Shown: piece after piece, positions 36,297-56,781 of the stretch
Layout: every line of letters starts with the position of its first letter
How positions within the stretch are numbered: the stretch's first letter is position 1
NCBI RefSeq assembly: GCF_003955715.1
Contig: NZ_CP034463.1
Coordinates: forward strand, 4,340,001 to 4,404,000
Length of the DNA stretch: 64,000 nt
Source of the DNA: Streptomyces aquilus
GTDB lineage: Bacteria > Actinomycetota > Actinomycetes > Streptomycetales > Streptomycetaceae
Reading direction: 5' to 3'
Program-made: the position numbers and the translations under genes
Notes under the pieces: model-generated
What the model was told of the DNA's origin: nothing
Database searches by the model: none
What the model saw: only the letters and a program-made list of their open reading frames with translations

Positions 36297-37451
36297 CTAC
36301 GTGTCCGCGTACTTGGCGTCGGCTGCCGGGTCCAGGGCGAGGCGGTAGCCCCGTTTCACCACCGTCTGGATGAGCTTCGGGGCGCCGAGGGACGTACGGA
36401 GGCGGGCCATGGCCGTTTCCACCGCGTGTTCGTCGCGGCCCGCGCCCGGCAGGGCCCGCAGGAGTTCCGCGCGGGCGACCACCCAGCCGGGCCGGCGGGA
36501 CAGCGCGCGCAGCAGGGACATCCCGGCCGGTGGTACGGGGCGCAGGGCGCCGTCGACGAGGACCGCGTGGCCGCGGATCTCGACGCGGTGGCCGGCGATG
36601 GGCAGGATGCGGGCCCGGGCCGGGAGCTCCTGACAGAGGAGCTGGACGAGCGGGCCGAGGCGGAAGCGCTCGGGCTGGACGGTGTCGACGCCGCGGGCCT
36701 GGAGGGGAAGGGCCGTCACCGGGCCCACGCAGGCCGGGAGGACGTCGTGGTTGAGGGCGGCCAGCAGCTCTGGGAGCAGGCCCCGCTCCTCGGCCCGGCT
36801 CAGGAGCGACGCCGCCGCGGGGGCGCTGGTGAAGGTCAGGGCGTCCAGGCCCCGGGAGACGGTGGCGTCCAGGAGGCGGTCCACCGGGCCGATGTCCTCC
36901 GGTGGCATCCACCGGTAGACCGGCACCCCGAGCACGTCCGCTCCCCCGGCACGGAGCGCCTCCACGAAACCGGGCAGCGGCTCGCCGTGCAGCTGGACGG
37001 CGATACGGCGCCCTTCGACACCTTCCTCCAGCAGCCGGTCCAGCACCTCGGCCATGGACTCGGACGACGGCGACCAGTTCTCGGTCAGCCCGGCGGCCCG
37101 GATCGCGCCCTTCACCTTGGGACCGCGCGCCAGCACCTCGACGCCCCGCAGCCGCTCGAGCAGGTCCTCGCCCAGCCCCCAGCCGTCGGCGGCCTCGATC
37201 CAGCCCCGGAACCCGATCGCGGTCGTGGCCACCACGACATCCGGTACGTCGTCGATGACCTGCTTGGTCGCGGCGAGCAGCTCGCTGTCGTCGGCGAGCT
37301 GCACGATCCGCAGGGCCGGTGCGTGCAGGACGGCGGCTCCCCGTCGCTGCAGCAGTGCGCCCAGCTCGTCGGCCCGGCGCGCGGCTGTCACCCCGACGGT
37401 GAAGCCGGCCAGGGGGCCGTGTTGTTCTGGTCGCTGCTGTTCGTCGTACAT
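36297..37451 (-). CDS. nnaR: HemD-like / winged-helix nitrogen regulator (NnaR type)
   Basis: 384 residues. Residues 15 to about 265 form a uroporphyrinogen-III synthase fold (FTVGVTAARRADELGALLQRRGA; LTFTSAPAAASLL); residues about 285-375 are an OmpR-type winged helix (GMSLLRALSRRPGWVVARAELLR). This fusion is the layout of NnaR, which with GlnR activates nitrate/nitrite assimilation genes in S. coelicolor. The neighbouring narK supports this. It may or may not retain synthase activity. Confidence 0.88.
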   Translation of the reverse strand: MYDEQQRPEQHGPLAGFTVGVTAARRADELGALLQRRGAAVLHAPALRIVQLADDSELLAATKQVIDDVPDVVVATTAIGFRGWIEAADGWGLGEDLLERLRGVEVLARGPKVKGAIRAAGLTENWSPSSESMAEVLDRLLEEGVEGRRIAVQLHGEPLPGFVEALRAGGADVLGVPVYRWMPPEDIGPVDRLLDATVSRGLDALTFTSAPAAASLLSRAEERGLLPELLAALNHDVLPACVGPVTALPLQARGVDTVQPERFRLGPLVQLLCQELPARARILPIAGHRVEIRGHAVLVDGALRPVPPAGMSLLRALSRRPGWVVARAELLRALPGAGRDEHAVETAMARLRTSLGAPKLIQTVVKRGYRLALDPAADAKYADT

Positions 37452-48318: not shown

Positions 48319-48779
48319 TTTCGTCGGTCTCTCGGTGGTGGTGCGGGCAGCGCCACGGTAGCGGGGGCTCGGAGCGGGCACCAGAGCGACGGGTGGGGTG
48401 CGTGAGGTGTTCCAGGGCGGGCGAGAAAGTGGAAGCAGACTCCTCCGTTTTGCTGGCGTGAGCAACTCACGTGCAGGGACGTTCAGTTGCGCTTACAGGG
48501 TGAGCCCGCACCTTTTGCCGGAGCAACCGCGCGGAGGCACTTGCTCCGGATATCCGGGTCTTGCCGGGGTGATCACGGCTCGCCTAGGGTCTGCGGTGAT
48601 CAAGCGGATCCGTCTTTCTCCGCCGCTGCGGTCGGCTCTGCCGCCGCTTTCCCCTACGGCCTCCCGACGGAACACGCCAAGTGCGTGACGTCCGCAGGCA
48701 GTTCTCTCTTTTCTTTTCTTCTCTTCCCTTCCTCCGGTGCCTTTTCTGTGCGCCGGCATTCCCTCACCTCGAGAGCGAC
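48319..48779. other. Long leader/promoter region of subtilase 1
   Basis: About 460 bases without a credible gene. It contains a divergent promoter space and a pyrimidine-rich stretch (TCTCTTTTCTTTTCTTCTCTTCCC, 48704-48727) shortly before the protease start. I looked for a c-di-AMP riboswitch core and did not find one. Confidence 0.5.
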
Positions 48780-51310: not shown

Positions 51311-51925
51311 ATGTCCGAGGACCGGAAGATGCTGGAGCCGATGGCGACGGTGGTGTCGATAGCGCTGCGGGTGCTGTTGGCGCTGGTGACGCTGGGGGTC
51401 GTCTTCAGAACCGTGCACGGAGGCTGGGGCGGCGGCCTCGTCTGCATGACCGACGACTCGATGTCCGGATCTACGGGCGCCGAGCGCTTCTTCCCCGAGA
51501 AGGGGGTGTCGGTCGACACGATCCCCCACTACTGCGCGGACTCCCCCAGCATGTCCCTGCACCTCATGGACGAGTTCAGCACACTGCCCTCGGCAGTGCT
51601 GCTGATCGGCGGCCTCTTCCTGCTGCACCAGCTCCTCAAGGGCGCCGCCCGCGACGGCATCTACACCACGCGTACGGCCTCCCGGATGCGGGTGCTCGGC
51701 TGGTGGCTGCTGGCCGGCAGCGTGGTCGCCGAGCTGATCGAGTCCAACCTCAAGGCCGCCGTCCTCGCCGAGCTGACCACGGTAGAGACCTTCTCGGCCG
51801 CCTCCTGGCTGGAGATGTGGTCCACCCCCTACCTGCTCATCCTCACCGGCCTCGGCCTCCTCACCTTCGCCCGTATCACCAGCGCCGGCGCCGCCATGCG
51901 CGAGGACCTCGAAGGGGTCGTCTGA
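51311..51925 (+). CDS. DUF2975 membrane protein
   Basis: 204 residues with four membrane helices (VVSIALRVLLALVTLGVVF; AVLLIGGLFLLHQLLKGAA; WWLLAGSVVAELIES; YLLILTGLGLLTFARI). DUF2975 proteins are typically encoded with a small XRE regulator, as here, and their role is unknown. ATG 51311 follows GGCGGGGG. The stop shares one base with the regulator start (TGATG). Confidence 0.88.
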   Translation: MSEDRKMLEPMATVVSIALRVLLALVTLGVVFRTVHGGWGGGLVCMTDDSMSGSTGAERFFPEKGVSVDTIPHYCADSPSMSLHLMDEFSTLPSAVLLIGGLFLLHQLLKGAARDGIYTTRTASRMRVLGWWLLAGSVVAELIESNLKAAVLAELTTVETFSAASWLEMWSTPYLLILTGLGLLTFARITSAGAAMREDLEGVV

Positions 51926-52158
51926 TGGCCGAGGACGAGCACGAGGGCCACGACATCGAGGTCCATCTCGACAGGCTCCTCAGCGAGCGCGGGATGACCG
52001 TCACCGAACTCGCCCACCGCGTCGGCGTCACCAACGTCAACCTGTCCGTCCTCAAGAACGGGCGCGCCAAGGCGATCCGCTTCACCACCCTCACCCGGAT
52101 CTGCGAGGTCCTGGACTGCCAGCCGGGTGATCTGCTCAGCTACCGCCCCAAGTCATAA
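51925..52158 (+). CDS. Small XRE/Cro-type regulator (YozG-like)
   Basis: 77 residues; helix-turn-helix MTVTELAHRVGVTNVNLSVL with recognition helix NVNLSVLKNGRAKAIRF. YozG-like regulators accompany DUF2975 proteins. It probably represses its own operon through the three ATCG-n5-CGAT palindromes; this is inference from position. Confidence 0.9.
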   Translation: MAEDEHEGHDIEVHLDRLLSERGMTVTELAHRVGVTNVNLSVLKNGRAKAIRFTTLTRICEVLDCQPGDLLSYRPKS

Positions 52159-52169
52159 GGAGACAGGAC

Positions 52170-52274
52170 ATGTTCGGCGTCATGGACACCAGCATGAAGA
52201 TAGTCATCGCCGTCGTCGCGGCCGCTCTCGTCACGGGCGTGATCCTGCTCGGCCGCTGGCTCGCGAAGAAGTAA
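52170..52274 (+). CDS. 34-aa single-pass membrane peptide
   Basis: ATG 52170 is preceded by AAGGAGACAGGAC, an excellent Shine-Dalgarno, 11 bases after the regulator stop. The product MFGVMDTSMK plus a helix (IVIAVVAAALVTGVILLGRW) and a LAKK end is a typical small inner-membrane peptide. It is third in the DUF2975/XRE operon. Too short for family recognition. Confidence 0.75.
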   Translation: MFGVMDTSMKIVIAVVAAALVTGVILLGRWLAKK

Positions 52275-52281
52275 CCGCGGA

Positions 52282-52365
52282 AAGCTCAATTGCGCCTCAA
52301 GTAAACCGACTTGAGTTCCCCGCAAGCTCAATTGATCCTCAGGAAAGGCCATTTGAGCTTCCCGC
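52282..52365. repeat. Two tandem 42-bp repeats carrying the TGAG-n3-CAATTGAG motif
   Basis: Copies 52282-52323 and 52324-52365 both begin AAGCTCAATTG and end TTGAG(T/C)TCCCCGC or similar. On the minus strand each contains TGAG-n3-CAATTGAG (plus-strand 52285-52299 and 52327-52341). They lie 145-228 bases upstream of the secreted-protein gene. Confidence 0.85.
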
Positions 52366-52509
52366 GCCCCCATTCCGTGCGGAAGGATCAAGGCAAGCGA
52401 GAACGCCGAAGGGGAAAGGCGGAATCGCTTGTAGGGGGGCGAATCATCGCGCTTTCCCTACTGCTTATTTCAGTTCGTGTACTCATTTCACGTAACGGAG
52501 GCAGTAGAT

Positions 52510-53274
52510 ATGCGTACCACGTCGAAGATGAACCGTCAGCGGCTCGTCGGGATCGCCGTCGCCACCGCGGCGGCCATCACGATGGCGGCCCTGCCGGGGT
52601 CCGCGTTCGCCGACGACACCACCGGCACCACGCCCGAGGCCTACGAGGCCTACCTGGTGGAGCAGGTGGAGCTCGGCGACTCGGACGCGCAGGAGACCCT
52701 GGACCAGTACTCGGCGCTCTCCGACGGCGACAAGGAACAGTTCGTCGATCTGCTGAACGATCCTCAGCGCGGCCAGGAGCTGGGCGACTTCATCTCGGAC
52801 GTCTCCGACATCGAGTCCATAGACGAGGAGCACTACACCACCGAGACGAGAAAGGAGGCCGCGGACGGCGACGTCGTCCTGGAGGCCACCCTCGCCGTCG
52901 AGGAGACCGAGACGCCCCCGACCACCGACGAGGAGCTCGCCGACCCGAGCGCCCGGTACTACGACCGGAGCGCCTGGTACTCCGTCTCCGACACCATCTT
53001 CGGCGTGAAGGTGACGACCGTGAAGATCGGCGTCAACTACCGCACGACCTCGTCCCGTGTCGTGAAGGTCTACGGCGGCTGGGCCTCGCACCGCAACTTC
53101 GTGCCGTTCGCCGAGTTCTCCAACAGCCCGGTCCAGACGTGGATCTCCGCCGACCCGGCGAACAACGCCACCGCGCAGACCATCTGGCAGGGCAAGTGGT
53201 CCGGGTTCTCCTGGGACGCCCGTGAGCGCATCTGGGCCGACCAGAGCGGCTTCAAGGGCGGCTACCTGAAGTAG
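52510..53274 (+). CDS. Secreted protein of unknown function
   Basis: 254 residues. Signal peptide (MRTTSKMNRQRLVGIAVATA, cleavage near GSAFA) and mature N-terminal acidic helical region (EAYLVEQVELGDSDAQETLD), then a Trp/Tyr-rich beta-type C-terminal half (YYDRSAWYSVSDTIFGVKVT; WASHRNFVPFAEFSN). No cysteines. No family recognised. ATG 52510 has GGAGG eight bases upstream. Confidence 0.85.
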   Translation: MRTTSKMNRQRLVGIAVATAAAITMAALPGSAFADDTTGTTPEAYEAYLVEQVELGDSDAQETLDQYSALSDGDKEQFVDLLNDPQRGQELGDFISDVSDIESIDEEHYTTETRKEAADGDVVLEATLAVEETETPPTTDEELADPSARYYDRSAWYSVSDTIFGVKVTTVKIGVNYRTTSSRVVKVYGGWASHRNFVPFAEFSNSPVQTWISADPANNATAQTIWQGKWSGFSWDARERIWADQSGFKGGYLK

Positions 53275-53290
53275 GCCCCTCCCGTCCCGC

Positions 53291-53345
53291 ACCGGCAGAG
53301 CCGGTCGTGTCGAGCTTCTCGCTCGGTGCGGCCGGCTCTGCCGGT
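53291..53345 (+). terminator. Terminator after the secreted-protein gene
   Basis: ACCGGCAGAGCCGG and CCGGCTCTGCCGGT form a 14-bp stem followed by TTTTCT. Confidence 0.85.
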
Positions 53346-53352
53346 TTTCTGT

Positions 53353-53487
53353 GCGCCAATCCATCGGGCGCCAATCCATCGGGCGCACCTCCACCGTGCG
53401 CACCTCCACCGTGCACACCTCCACCGTGCGCACCTCCACCGTGCACACCTCCACCGTGCGCACCTCCACCGTGCGCACCTCCATGCT
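53353..53487. repeat. 15-bp minisatellite, nine units
   Basis: Two units GCGCCAATCCATCGG, six units GC(G/A)CACCTCCACCGT and one divergent last unit GCGCACCTCCATGCT follow without gaps. In units 3 and 5 of the second type the third base is A. It fills most of the space between the terminator and the GNAT gene. Confidence 0.95.
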
Positions 53488-53544
53488 CGAACGCGCGTGC
53501 AAAACGGTTTGCCGCAGGCCGGTCCGGCCCGATAAGAAGCCTGC

Positions 53545-54087
53545 ATGCTTAGAGGCAGCAAGGTCGGGCTCCGGGCCCGGCACGAGGACGACATCCCGGT
53601 TCTCCAGGCCGAGCTCTACGACGACGTGGTCACCACCTCGCGCGCCGACGGCCGGCCGTGGCGGCCGCTCCCGCCCAGCACCACCGACGGGAAGTTCGTG
53701 GTGGATCCCACGGACCAGGAGAACCTCCCGTTCTCGGTGGTGGACCTGGAGAGCGGCGAGCTGGTCGGCGCGGCGACGCTGTGGGGCATCGACACCCACC
53801 ACCGGTGCGCGCACGTCGGCCTCGGCCTGCTGCCGTCCGCCCGTGGCAAGGGCTACGGCACCGACGTGGTCGCGGTGCTGTGCCACTACGGCTTCGTCGT
53901 GCGGGGCCTGCACCGGCTACAGGTCGAGACGCTGCCGGACAACGTCGGGATGCTGCGGTCCGCCGAGCGCAACGGCTTCGTCCGCGAGGGCGTCCTGCGC
54001 TCCTCGGCCTGGGTGCTGGGCGAGTTCATGGACGAGGTGGTCCTCGGACTGCTCGCCGAGGAGTGGAAGCACGGCACGAACAGCTAG
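53545..54087 (+). CDS. GNAT-family N-acetyltransferase (RimJ/RimL type)
   Basis: 180 residues. The acetyl-CoA pyrophosphate-binding motif reads LLPSARGKGYGTDVVAVLCHYGF (Q/RxxGxG/A form in ARGKGYG), followed by the HRLQVETLPDNVGMLRSAERNGF segment of RimJ/L relatives. It acetylates an unknown protein or small molecule in the cytoplasm. Confidence 0.92.
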   Translation: MLRGSKVGLRARHEDDIPVLQAELYDDVVTTSRADGRPWRPLPPSTTDGKFVVDPTDQENLPFSVVDLESGELVGAATLWGIDTHHRCAHVGLGLLPSARGKGYGTDVVAVLCHYGFVVRGLHRLQVETLPDNVGMLRSAERNGFVREGVLRSSAWVLGEFMDEVVLGLLAEEWKHGTNS

Positions 54088-54104
54088 TTCGCCGCAGCGC
54101 AGAA

Positions 54105-54142
54105 CGAAACGCCCGGCCGGGTCATCCCGGCCGGGCGTTTCG
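54105..54142. terminator. Bidirectional terminator between GNAT and subtilase 2
   Basis: A perfect 17-bp stem CGAAACGCCCGGCCGGG/CCCGGCCGGGCGTTTCG with a TCAT loop between convergent genes. Confidence 0.92.
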
Positions 54143-54156
54143 GTGGTGCGGTCAGG

Positions 54157-56532
54157 TCAGAAGGTCAGCGCCCAGTCGTCCAGCGTGCCCGTCCCGCCCG
54201 CCGACTTGTCGGCGACCTGGAGCTTCCAGGTGCCGGCGATCGGGGAGGCGCTCGCGTCGACCGTGTAGACCTTGGTGAGCGTGCCGCCCGGGTCCGTGGC
54301 GTTGGTGGCCTTCACCGCGTAGACCAGGCCGTTCGGGGCGACCAGGTCGATCTTCACCTCGCCGAGCCACTCGTGGGTGAGCTTGAGGGAGACCTTCAGG
54401 GTCTTCGGCGCGTTGCCGGAGATGCCGGTCAGCGTGATCGGCGCCTGGAGCGTGCCCGCGTCCGGGATCGCGTACGTGGACTGGCTCTCGATCGACGGGA
54501 AGGTCAGGGACCAGTTGTTCAGGGTGCCGGTGCCGCCCGCCGACTTGTCGGCGACGAGGAGCTTCCAGGTGCCGTTGGCCGGAGAGGCGGTCGCGTCGAC
54601 GGTGTACGTCTTGGTCAGCGTGCCGCCCGGGTCGGTGCCGTTGGTGGCCTTCAGGGCGTACGTCCGGCCGTCGGGGGCGACCAGGTCGATCTTCACCTCG
54701 CCGAGCCACTCGTGGGTGACGTTCACGGACGCCTGGAGCGCGCCGGAGGCGTTGCCGGTGACGCCGTCCACGGTGATCTCGGAGGTGAGGGTGGCCGCGT
54801 CCGGGACGGCGGCGGCGGTCGTCCTCGCGAACGGGGTCGGGAACGTCAGCGCCCAGTCGTCGATGGTCCCGGTGCCGCCGGCGGACTTGTCGGCGACCTG
54901 GAGCTTCCAGGTGCCGCTCGCCGGGGAGACGCTCGCGTCGACCGTGTACGTCTTGGTCAGCGTGCCGCCCGGGTCGGTGCCGTTGGTGGCCTTCAGGGCG
55001 TACGTCTGACCGTCGGGGGCGACCAGGTCGATCTTCACCTCACCGAGCCACTCGTGGGTGACGGCCACGGAGACCTGGAGGGTCTTGGGCGCGTTGCCGG
55101 TGACCCCGGAGACGGTGATCGGCGACCGGACGGTGCCCAGGTCCGGGATGGCGTACGAGGCGTCGTTGAGGATCTTCGTACGGCGGGTGGTGTCGGCGGG
55201 CGCCGGGTCCGGCTGGGGCGTCGCGGCACCGACCGCCTTGCCGACGTCGATCCGGGGGACGGTCACGCCCGCCTCGTCGGTGACCGGCGTACCGGTCGAC
55301 TTCAGCAGCGCCTCCAGCTCGGCGAGGGTCTTGTCCGGGTAGGCCTGGCGCAGGACGGCGAAGGCACCGGCGACGTGCGGGGTGGCCATGGAGGTGCCGC
55401 TCATGGAGTCGTAACCGCCGCCGGGGACCGAGGAGATGATGCCGTTGCCGGGAGCGAGGACGTCGAGCAGCGGGCCGTGGTTGGAGAAGGAGGCGATCTG
55501 GTCGTCGTCGGTCGTGGCGCCGACCGAGACCGCGTTGGGCACGCAGGCCGGGGCGGTCACCGCGGTGGGGCTGCCGTTGTTGCCGGCCGCGACGACGGTG
55601 GCGACTCCGGCCTCGTAGAGGCTGTCGATGACGGTCTTGCGGGCGTCCTTGGTGCAGGCGGTGGAGTAACTCGCCGAGCCCAGGCTGAGGTTGGCGGCGA
55701 CGATCGGGGTGCCGGCCTGCTTGAGCGCCAGCACCTTCTCCAGCGCGGCGATCTGGGCGCTGGTGAAGCTGCGGATGCAGGGGTTGGTGGCGCCGCAGTA
55801 CTTCGTGGAGTCGAGCTTGGAGAAGACCTGGATGGCGACGATGTCGGCGCCCGGGGCCACACCGGTGGCGGGGGCGCCGCTCAGGCCGGTGCCGTCACCG
55901 GCGGCGATACCGGCGACATGAGTGCCGTGGTCGCACTCGGCGATGGCTGCGCAGGTGCTCGCGTTGGCGGCGCCGGTGCCCTCCTGGGTGGCCGCGCCGT
56001 TCCCGCACAGGCTGGTGGCGCCGTAGTTGGCGTCGACGGGCGAGAAGCAGGCCTCGGTGGTGACCCGGCCCTTCAGGAACGGGTGGCCGGCGGCGACCCC
56101 GGTGTCCAGGATCGCGATCGCGCTGCCCTTGCCGGTCTTTCCGGCCGCGATGGCCTTGTCGCCGCCGATGATCGGCACGCTCTCGTCGAGCGACGGCGCG
56201 ACCAGCTCGTCCTCGGTGACGCTGACGACGCCCGGCTGGGCCGCCAGTTCGTCCAGGCCGCCCTTGTCCACCTCCAGGGTGACCACGGGCAGCGTCTTGA
56301 AGGACAGCACCGTCTCACCGGCGCTCGCCGCAGTGGCGATATCTCCGCGGTCCTCGGTGACGACATTGACGCGTACGGTGCCGCCGTCGGCGGTCTCGTC
56401 GTAGAGCGGCGGATCGATCGGGTCGGATTCCGTCGCCGTGGTCGAGATGTCCGTGGCGGCGTATGCGGGAATCACCCCGAGGCTCACGGTCATCAGCACA
56501 GTGGCGACCGTAGCCCATATCTGTCTCTTCAT
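54157..56532 (-). CDS. Secreted subtilase (S8) with three near-identical P domains
   Basis: 791 residues. Signal peptide ends near VIPAYA (25). Triad: Asp143 (AILDTGV), His202 (DHGTHVAG), Ser381 (GTSMATPH). The three P domains each carry the blocks THEWLGEVKIDLVAP, ATN(G/A)TDPGGTLTK and VADKSAGGTGT, so they arose by recent tandem duplication. The catalytic domain contains stretches almost base-identical to the plus-strand paralogue. Start ATG 56532. Confidence 0.94.
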   Translation of the reverse strand: MKRQIWATVATVLMTVSLGVIPAYAATDISTTATESDPIDPPLYDETADGGTVRVNVVTEDRGDIATAASAGETVLSFKTLPVVTLEVDKGGLDELAAQPGVVSVTEDELVAPSLDESVPIIGGDKAIAAGKTGKGSAIAILDTGVAAGHPFLKGRVTTEACFSPVDANYGATSLCGNGAATQEGTGAANASTCAAIAECDHGTHVAGIAAGDGTGLSGAPATGVAPGADIVAIQVFSKLDSTKYCGATNPCIRSFTSAQIAALEKVLALKQAGTPIVAANLSLGSASYSTACTKDARKTVIDSLYEAGVATVVAAGNNGSPTAVTAPACVPNAVSVGATTDDDQIASFSNHGPLLDVLAPGNGIISSVPGGGYDSMSGTSMATPHVAGAFAVLRQAYPDKTLAELEALLKSTGTPVTDEAGVTVPRIDVGKAVGAATPQPDPAPADTTRRTKILNDASYAIPDLGTVRSPITVSGVTGNAPKTLQVSVAVTHEWLGEVKIDLVAPDGQTYALKATNGTDPGGTLTKTYTVDASVSPASGTWKLQVADKSAGGTGTIDDWALTFPTPFARTTAAAVPDAATLTSEITVDGVTGNASGALQASVNVTHEWLGEVKIDLVAPDGRTYALKATNGTDPGGTLTKTYTVDATASPANGTWKLLVADKSAGGTGTLNNWSLTFPSIESQSTYAIPDAGTLQAPITLTGISGNAPKTLKVSLKLTHEWLGEVKIDLVAPNGLVYAVKATNATDPGGTLTKVYTVDASASPIAGTWKLQVADKSAGGTGTLDDWALTF

Positions 56533-56713
56533 CGTCACTCTCAACAATGCGCGGGCATGACGAAACATGCGGGCCGAATAGAGAAAAGGCGAATTACCGT
56601 GAATTACCCTGGCGTTGCACCGGGCACGGTTCCGCCTTTCCCCTTCGGCGTTGCCGCGCAGGCATGATCCTTCCACGGGGTCATGGCCGCGAGCGAGAGC
56701 TACTCAGGTGTTC

Positions 56714-56781
56714 TGAGCTTCAATTGAGGCTGATCCATATGCTTGAGCTGCAATTGAGGGTTTATTTGAGGCTCAATTGAG
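56714..56781. repeat. Three TGAG-n3-CAATTGAG motifs upstream of subtilase 2
   Basis: TGAGCTTCAATTGAG (56714), TGAGCTGCAATTGAG (56744) and TGAGGCTCAATTGAG (56767) are spaced 30 and 23 bases apart. The same motif occurs twice at 52285-52341 on the other strand. The copies lie about 180-250 bases upstream of the protease start and just past the stop of the acyltransferase gene. Confidence 0.9.

Follow-up and report, generated by a model that had tools for sequence, protein, structure and literature searches.

What does a motif repeated in two distant spacers of one bacterial chromosome do there, and what might bind it? The spacers lie in a stretch of 64,000 nucleotides, called the window here (G000:C1:4340001-4404000), of a genome that forms a single contig of 10.39 Mb and belongs to Streptomyces by its closest named relatives. 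One spacer precedes the gene of an uncharacterised protein, referred to below as the secreted protein, and the other precedes a subtilase gene, subtilase 2. A preliminary description of this DNA had recorded five copies of TGAGN3CAATTGAG in the two spacers, and had suggested either a link among genes for extracellular proteins or a new short repeat family. The element found at related loci is a pair of boxes, CTCAR-N6-CTCAR, that stands in a fixed register before the predicted promoter elements. This CTCA-box pair looks like the docking site of a gene activator. In our judgement the scales stand about level for the motif being the operator of a transcriptional activator, most likely an OmpR/PhoB-type response regulator encoded elsewhere in the genome.

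Two boxes, one spacing and one promoter register make a sharp operator definition before a family of uncharacterised Streptomyces secreted proteins, on chromosomes as well as on plasmids. Naming the binder would reveal the signal that switches on these secreted proteins and a subtilase, and would also show whether a neighbouring pair of genes, for a DUF2975-type membrane protein and a helix-turn-helix (HTH) protein, is a regulator. The features of the two promoters are as follows.

52285..52300, + strand: upstream direct-repeat pair CTCAATTGCGCCTCAA (CTCAR-N6-CTCAR), starting 98 bp upstream of the -10-like AAGGATC
52327..52342, + strand: proximal direct-repeat pair CTCAATTGATCCTCAG, conserved putative operator of the secreted-protein promoter, in a register common to 14 distinct promoters
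52358..52363, + strand: -35 position (columns 31-36 of the anchored alignment), degenerate here, TTGNC in 8/14 aligned promoters
52383..52388, + strand: predicted -10-like AAGGAT
52394..52431, + strand: hairpin opening the predicted leader RNA (model R1), with compensatory changes in both of its helices
52510..53274, + strand: gene of the uncharacterised protein, whose N-terminus looks by eye like a signal peptide; putative target of the left promoter
56766..56781, - strand: distal direct-repeat pair CTCAATTGAGCCTCAA, before subtilase 2
56743..56758, - strand: middle direct-repeat pair CTCAATTGCAGCTCAA, before subtilase 2
56713..56728, - strand: proximal direct-repeat pair CTCAATTGAAGCTCAG, before subtilase 2
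56667..56672, - strand: predicted -10-like AAGGAT of the subtilase-2 promoter
56625..56660, - strand: hairpin in the subtilase-2 leader, homologous to the secreted-protein leader hairpin
54157..56532, - strand: subtilase 2, putative target of the right promoter, with Peptidase_S8 and three P-domain matches

Copies of the motif in the genome

The five copies of TGAGN3CAATTGAG are present at 52285-52299 and 52327-52341 (- strand) and at 56714-56728, 56744-56758, and 56767-56781 (+ strand), and the left-hand two are spaced 42 bp apart, as first described. Each copy reads CTCAATTG-N3-CTCA toward the gene downstream. Under a first-order Markov model of the window, 0.0014 exact matches are expected per 64 kb and 0.22 per 10.39 Mb, so that five copies are indeed beyond chance, and the five are the sole exact matches in the genome. 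When up to two mismatches are allowed, the genome holds 66 matches, compared with 91 for the reversed pattern; the degenerate copies elsewhere are therefore background.

The preliminary description counted 12 fixed positions, which overstates the core: relatives hold constant just the two CTCAR units and their 11-bp spacing. Judged by the aligned loci, the motif as first written, with its CAATTG core, is clade-specific, and the conserved unit is CTCAR-N6-CTCAR. The palindrome CTCAATTGAG was dropped as a core since two of the closer loci (L073 and L074) and the distant homologues retain CTCAR units without CAATTG. The refined pattern occurs 36 times in the genome against 27 times for its reversal, where the Markov model expects 48, and five of the 36 are the sites described here. 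Of the other 31 matches, 25 were covered by inspecting 24 loci by eye (one match overlaps the locus L117 of another), and no second promoter in the same register was seen among them. The CTCAR pattern is no general code for secreted proteins. The suggested link among extracellular-protein genes thus stands in its narrow form, as a motif shared by the promoters of the secreted protein and subtilase 2, and fails in its wide form, the refined pattern being at genomic background and absent before subtilase 1, the other subtilase of the window. A narrower form, TTGAGNNGCAATTGAG, with one mismatch matched 51 of 295 genus genomes at scattered places, and its reversed control also matched many genomes.

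Conservation of the unit and its spacing

The unit was defined on the window and seven loci whose secreted protein is 71-99% identical, found in one scan of genome contigs. This definition set gave 8 secreted-protein and 5 subtilase-2 promoters, all 13 of which carry CTCAR at -56 and -45 (or -55 and -44) from AARGATC, with further CTCAR units upstream of the proximal pair. In L073 and L074 the CAATTG core is lost and a run of units such as GCTCAAATAAA is found, mostly 11 bp apart.

A homologue of the secreted protein occurs in 15 of 392 genus genomes (E <= 1e-5); the own genome and G343 (the same as L073) were already in the definition set, which leaves 13 chromosomal test homologues. At eight of these (L100-L107, from 59% down to 29% identity) CTCAR-N6-CTCAR lies upstream on the coding strand as the sole match in 10.8-20 kb, and dinucleotide shuffles of the chromosomal test promoters contain the pattern in 0 to 11 of 2000 cases. 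The chromosomal test was not strictly blind, as CTCAR and the 11-bp spacing had been fixed earlier and the combined pattern was first run when the promoter sequences were already known. A blind test was provided by plasmids, where a homologue is encoded in nine records of Streptomyces and one of Priestia. Every one of the nine Streptomyces records, which represent four distinct promoters (six records share one), has exactly one match in 12-17 kb; it is located 205-222 bp upstream of the annotated start, on the coding strand. One record, NZ_CP108058.1, has a second, weaker place of homologue match.

In the 17 distinct test promoters, the spacer is 6 in 12 cases and 12 in one case, and the other spacers from 2 to 15 are found in none. 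The reversed pattern gives 1 match in 226 kb of chromosomal loci and none in 122 kb of plasmid loci, compared with 10 and 9 true matches. The units are thus arranged in tandem, head to tail, with a period of about 11 bp, as in OmpR/PhoB-type operators.

Register of the repeats in the promoter

An ungapped alignment of 14 distinct promoters, anchored on the first CTCA, shows what else is held in place. CTCA is present twice in 14/14 promoters, A at column 8 in 13/14, T at column 32 in 14/14, C at column 35 in 13/14, and A at column 56 in 11/14. TTGNC starts at column 31 or 32 in the eight promoters that have it (L101-L105, L150, L152, and L154); L151 has TTGCA at the -35 position and L100 has TTGTC two to three columns earlier. 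A -10-like word stands at about columns 55-57. Outside the repeat, the first ten promoters have six columns in which eight or more sequences agree, whereas 1000 shuffles gave a mean of 0.065 such columns and never more than 2; this statistic ignores kinship, although several of the ten are related. In two more promoters, L106 and L107, the distance from the repeats to the -35 and -10 is shorter by about 10 bp, one helical turn.

The distance from the beginning of the second repeat to the -10 is 44-45 bp. If the start is taken about 7 bp after the -10, as is conventional, the repeats are predicted to centre near -60, a class I activator position. With predicted starts, the 14 promoters in fixed register and the two shifted by about 10 bp place the repeats where class I or class II activation would be possible. 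For comparison, the class I reference, the cap box, is given at -61.5 in PMC10936776, and activating CutR sites are placed at -62 and -69 in PMC12802291.

Based on these features, activation would proceed as follows. CTCAR-N6-CTCAR is an 11-bp head-to-tail direct repeat that spans one helical turn per unit, and each half would bind one protein subunit. The second unit starts about 20 bp upstream of the -35 position, and a protein bound near -60 could contact RNA polymerase (class I). Binding would be strengthened by the extra upstream pairs, which bring the total to two before the secreted-protein gene and three before subtilase 2. Most likely the binder is a winged-helix response regulator of the OmpR/PhoB type, whose gene would be located elsewhere in the genome. 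Subtilase 2 carries a copied promoter, such that both extracellular proteins would be switched on together, and both predicted transcripts open with a common hairpin that may stabilise or regulate the mRNA. The sequences themselves show the unit with its spacing, register, and conservation, the promoter copy, and the covariation, whereas activation, the start site, the protein family, and the part played by the hairpin are inferred.

The leader hairpin

The sequence block downstream of the -10 forms two short helices, with 99.1% of cells paired (13 sequences, 11 distinct). Four of the 11 pairs are changed on both sides, and no shuffled or slid version reaches the values for pairing, both-side change, or covariation; on the other hand, 296 of 500 shuffles match the number of further pair types, and the sequences share ancestry. 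An RNA model of the leader has two strong matches in its own genome, the two window leaders (77.9 and 75.3 bits), with the next best at 20; the weaker matches there look like chance. An Rfam scan of both window leaders gave no match at E up to 5.

Across the genus the hairpin is found in 4 of 392 genomes at E <= 0.01. The strong matches are in the own genome and in G343 (whose contig position is that of the S. resistomycificus locus L073), and two weak ones (25.7 and 24.2 bits) seem by eye to lie inside coding sequence. A widespread RNA was rejected because of this rarity. Several distant leaders have a predicted hairpin of different sequence at the corresponding place; the prediction is clear in L100, L102, and L104 and missing from L106 and L107. 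In GC-rich RNA this is weak evidence. The leader hairpin may stabilise or regulate the mRNA.

The subtilase-2 promoter as a copy

Aligned in gene direction, the two spacers have in common CTCAATTG-n-GCCTCAA-r-TAAACC and a second block, GGAAGGATCA...AACGCCGAAGGGGAAAGGCGGAA, which follows the beginning of the last unit by about 45 bp; in the stretch that separates the two blocks, ungapped identity of the spacers is 35%. No such repeat lies upstream of the subtilase genes in L074 and L100. Subtilase 1 of the window likewise lacks CTCAR-N6-CTCAR, and its leader differs from that of subtilase 2 and is, by eye, common to L074. Because the blocks are common to both spacers, the RNA model has two strong matches, the L074 and L100 subtilases lack the repeat, and the subtilase 1 leader is different, it is reasoned that the promoter of subtilase 2 is probably an acquired copy of the one before the secreted-protein gene.

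Which protein binds the repeats?

A winged-helix response regulator is favoured because the repeats are 11 bp apart, head to tail, and near -60, a reasoning that draws in part on general knowledge of the family. In Streptomyces, operators of OmpR/PhoB-family proteins such as the PHO box of PhoP and the sites of GlnR and AfsQ1 consist of tandem units with a spacing of 11 bp that lie at the -35 or upstream of it. Their units are not known to take the form CTCARnTnA, and GTNAC-N6-GNNAC is absent from both spacers; one PhoP-like word occurs a single time before subtilase 2. Several observations weigh against this activator reading. The refined pattern is near genomic background, which is more in keeping with a narrow regulator than with a core one. 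Five of the 13 chromosomal homologues (L108-L112) lack a coding-strand site: L108 and L109 each have an upstream match on the opposite strand, that of L108 at a distance of about 400 bp, and L110-L112 have none. The single Priestia homologue has no site. The four aligned promoters that come from the window clade, L073, and L074 have no TTG at the -35 position, which is degenerate in the clade of the window. Finally, no response-regulator gene adjoins the site, and the sole PF00486 match in the window is, by eye, a HemD-like fusion.

The most serious competitor lies next to the left promoter, where the following genes are found.

51320..51925, + strand: predicted membrane protein, with homologues annotated DUF2975 and no Pfam match of its own
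51925..52158, + strand: 77-residue Cro/C1-type HTH protein (HTH_26), rival candidate regulator
52170..52274, + strand: gene of a 34-residue hydrophobic peptide, after the HTH gene, with a counterpart (48.6% identical) that follows the HTH gene of L151

These genes could form a local three-gene membrane signalling module in which the HTH protein binds the repeats and the DUF2975-type membrane protein and the peptide serve as sensor or partner; we regard this as doubtful, though worth keeping in view. Five separate settings have the genes of the membrane and HTH proteins next to the secreted-protein gene or close to it, in three arrangements: the window clade, L074, L102, L150, and L151. Across these the HTH protein is 76-100% identical, while the secreted protein falls to 42%. 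This conservation is not special, since relatives of the HTH_26 protein are about 60-67% identical even in Bacillota plasmids. By tblastn, the pair was not found in the examined flanks, some of them short, of the site-bearing loci L100, L101, L103-L107, L152-L154, L156, and L157. Conversely, an HTH_26 operator would be expected wherever the pair lies, but 4 of 4 plasmid loci with the pair and without the secreted-protein gene, drawn from 176 records with an HTH match, have no site in their 10-12 kb neighbourhoods. Moreover, Cro/C1-type proteins usually bind inverted repeats. A bolder version, in which the membrane protein, the HTH protein, and the 34-residue membrane peptide are a new envelope-to-DNA module that acts through the CTCAR repeats on the secreted protein, has the structured leader RNA as a second layer, and travels with its target between Streptomyces chromosomes and plasmids, seems to us rather unlikely.

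Other binders are considerably less probable than an OmpR/PhoB-type regulator. SARP-type activators also bind direct repeats 11 bp apart, and those of the AfsR afs box are bound by winged-helix proteins (parts of PMC10936776 and PMC10972967). In L152 and L153 the plasmid homologue has a BTAD regulator gene nearby, and a SARP-like gene (by eye) of another genome, L049, has CTCAAATGCGGCTCAA upstream, in its promoter region. As far as these sources show, though, the 3' repeat of a SARP site is 8 bp from the -10 or the repeats overlap the -35 (the afs box is centred at -29.5), which is not the arrangement here, where the distance is 44-45 bp and the predicted centre near -60; PimR, a SARP-LAL protein, is an exception without -35 overlap. 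The sequences differ as well, TCGAG and the AfsR consensus being absent from both spacers, and a SARP at this site appears improbable. Little weight, in our view, goes to a known secretion-stress response regulator, CssR or CutR. The regulon of CssR is undefined according to the excerpt of PMC12802291, CAAATAAA, a listed CutR site, occurs once before subtilase 2, and an operon of this genome for HtrA, a response regulator, and a kinase (read as htrB-cssRS; L132/L137, G000:C1:5116966) has CTCAGGGAGCACTCAGGAAGCTCTCA directly before the htrA start. These CTCA repeats before htrB-cssRS are observed in this one genome, and the published htrB CutR site at -17 would place them downstream of the htrB start. 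The likely htrA3 gene (L143) has CATATAAA upstream and no CTCA repeat. The CutR site reported in PMC12802291 is a single 8-bp site, TAWATAAA, and its activating copies are close to the position of the repeats here, but this consensus is in neither spacer and the invariant part of the present unit is CTCA. A repressor operator is another conceivable reading of the sequence evidence; it too is hard to favour, as the proximal pair is upstream of the predicted -35 in 16/16 aligned promoters and never between the -35 and the start. Several copies within one locus could also suggest a dispersed short repeat family that is functionless at these genes, as the preliminary description had in part proposed. 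This is scarcely credible: the genome search refutes it with just five exact copies, none scattered and all in these two promoters, and position and strand are fixed across separate chromosomal loci and plasmids.

Comparison with the literature and related repeats

A literature search with the motif strings returned nothing on Streptomyces by title (subscription literature was outside its scope), and the parts of publications seen on CTCAG/TTGAG direct repeats and SARPs contain no match to the unit. For the DUF2975-HTH pair, no title concerned its function. SoxR and MacR boxes are inverted repeats containing CTCA or TTGAG halves, unlike the direct repeat here, and neither form is in the spacers. 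The C. glutamicum MprA motif TKTTAAGAAM, in the source excerpt, bears no resemblance to the unit, and the CTCAG-containing pstS repeats and WblI sites, as far as excerpts describe them, are unrelated.

A common regulator gene beside the homologues was sought and none found in 17 neighbourhoods; the widest family is LysR-type, in 5. WhiJ-like and DUF397-like families, in 3 of 17 neighbourhoods each, were judged coincidental without a statistical test.

Elsewhere in this genome (L117/L138, G000:C1:2273308-2273334), three CTCAG units in tandem, with a spacing of 11 bp, lie in the promoter of an OmpR-type response-regulator gene that is divergent from one resembling ferric reductase genes. The tandem CTCAG at this locus and at the HtrA operon are leads only. 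Tandem CTCAATTGCG-type 11-bp repeats lie before similar phytanoyl-CoA dioxygenase-like genes (by eye) in three genomes, at L053, L061, and L063.

Neighbouring genes and further observations

The secreted protein (52510..53274) belongs to no Pfam family. It has 32 relatives at E <= 1e-3, all Streptomyces where the organism is given and none with a Pfam domain. A PDB sequence search gave nothing credible (best E 0.09), and no relatives were found in viral contigs.

The DUF2975-HTH pair follows the secreted-protein gene as an apparent operon in L151 (8870-9937, with the 34-residue peptide), L150 (8884-9773), and L102 (1124-1965), and thus on plasmids and on a chromosome. The sole PF00486 match of the window is a winged-helix domain on a protein that by eye is uroporphyrinogen-III synthase-like (window 36320-37450, - strand).

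The leader of subtilase 1 (GCGGTCGGC..GCCGCTTTCCCCTACGGCCT), at window 48560-48760 and at about 4900-5150 of L074, is conserved and distinct; its 3' end partly resembles the secreted-protein leader (CGCTTTCCCTAC). Directly after the secreted-protein gene lies a tandem repeat of about 13 bp (gcgcacctccacc), at window 53360-53485.

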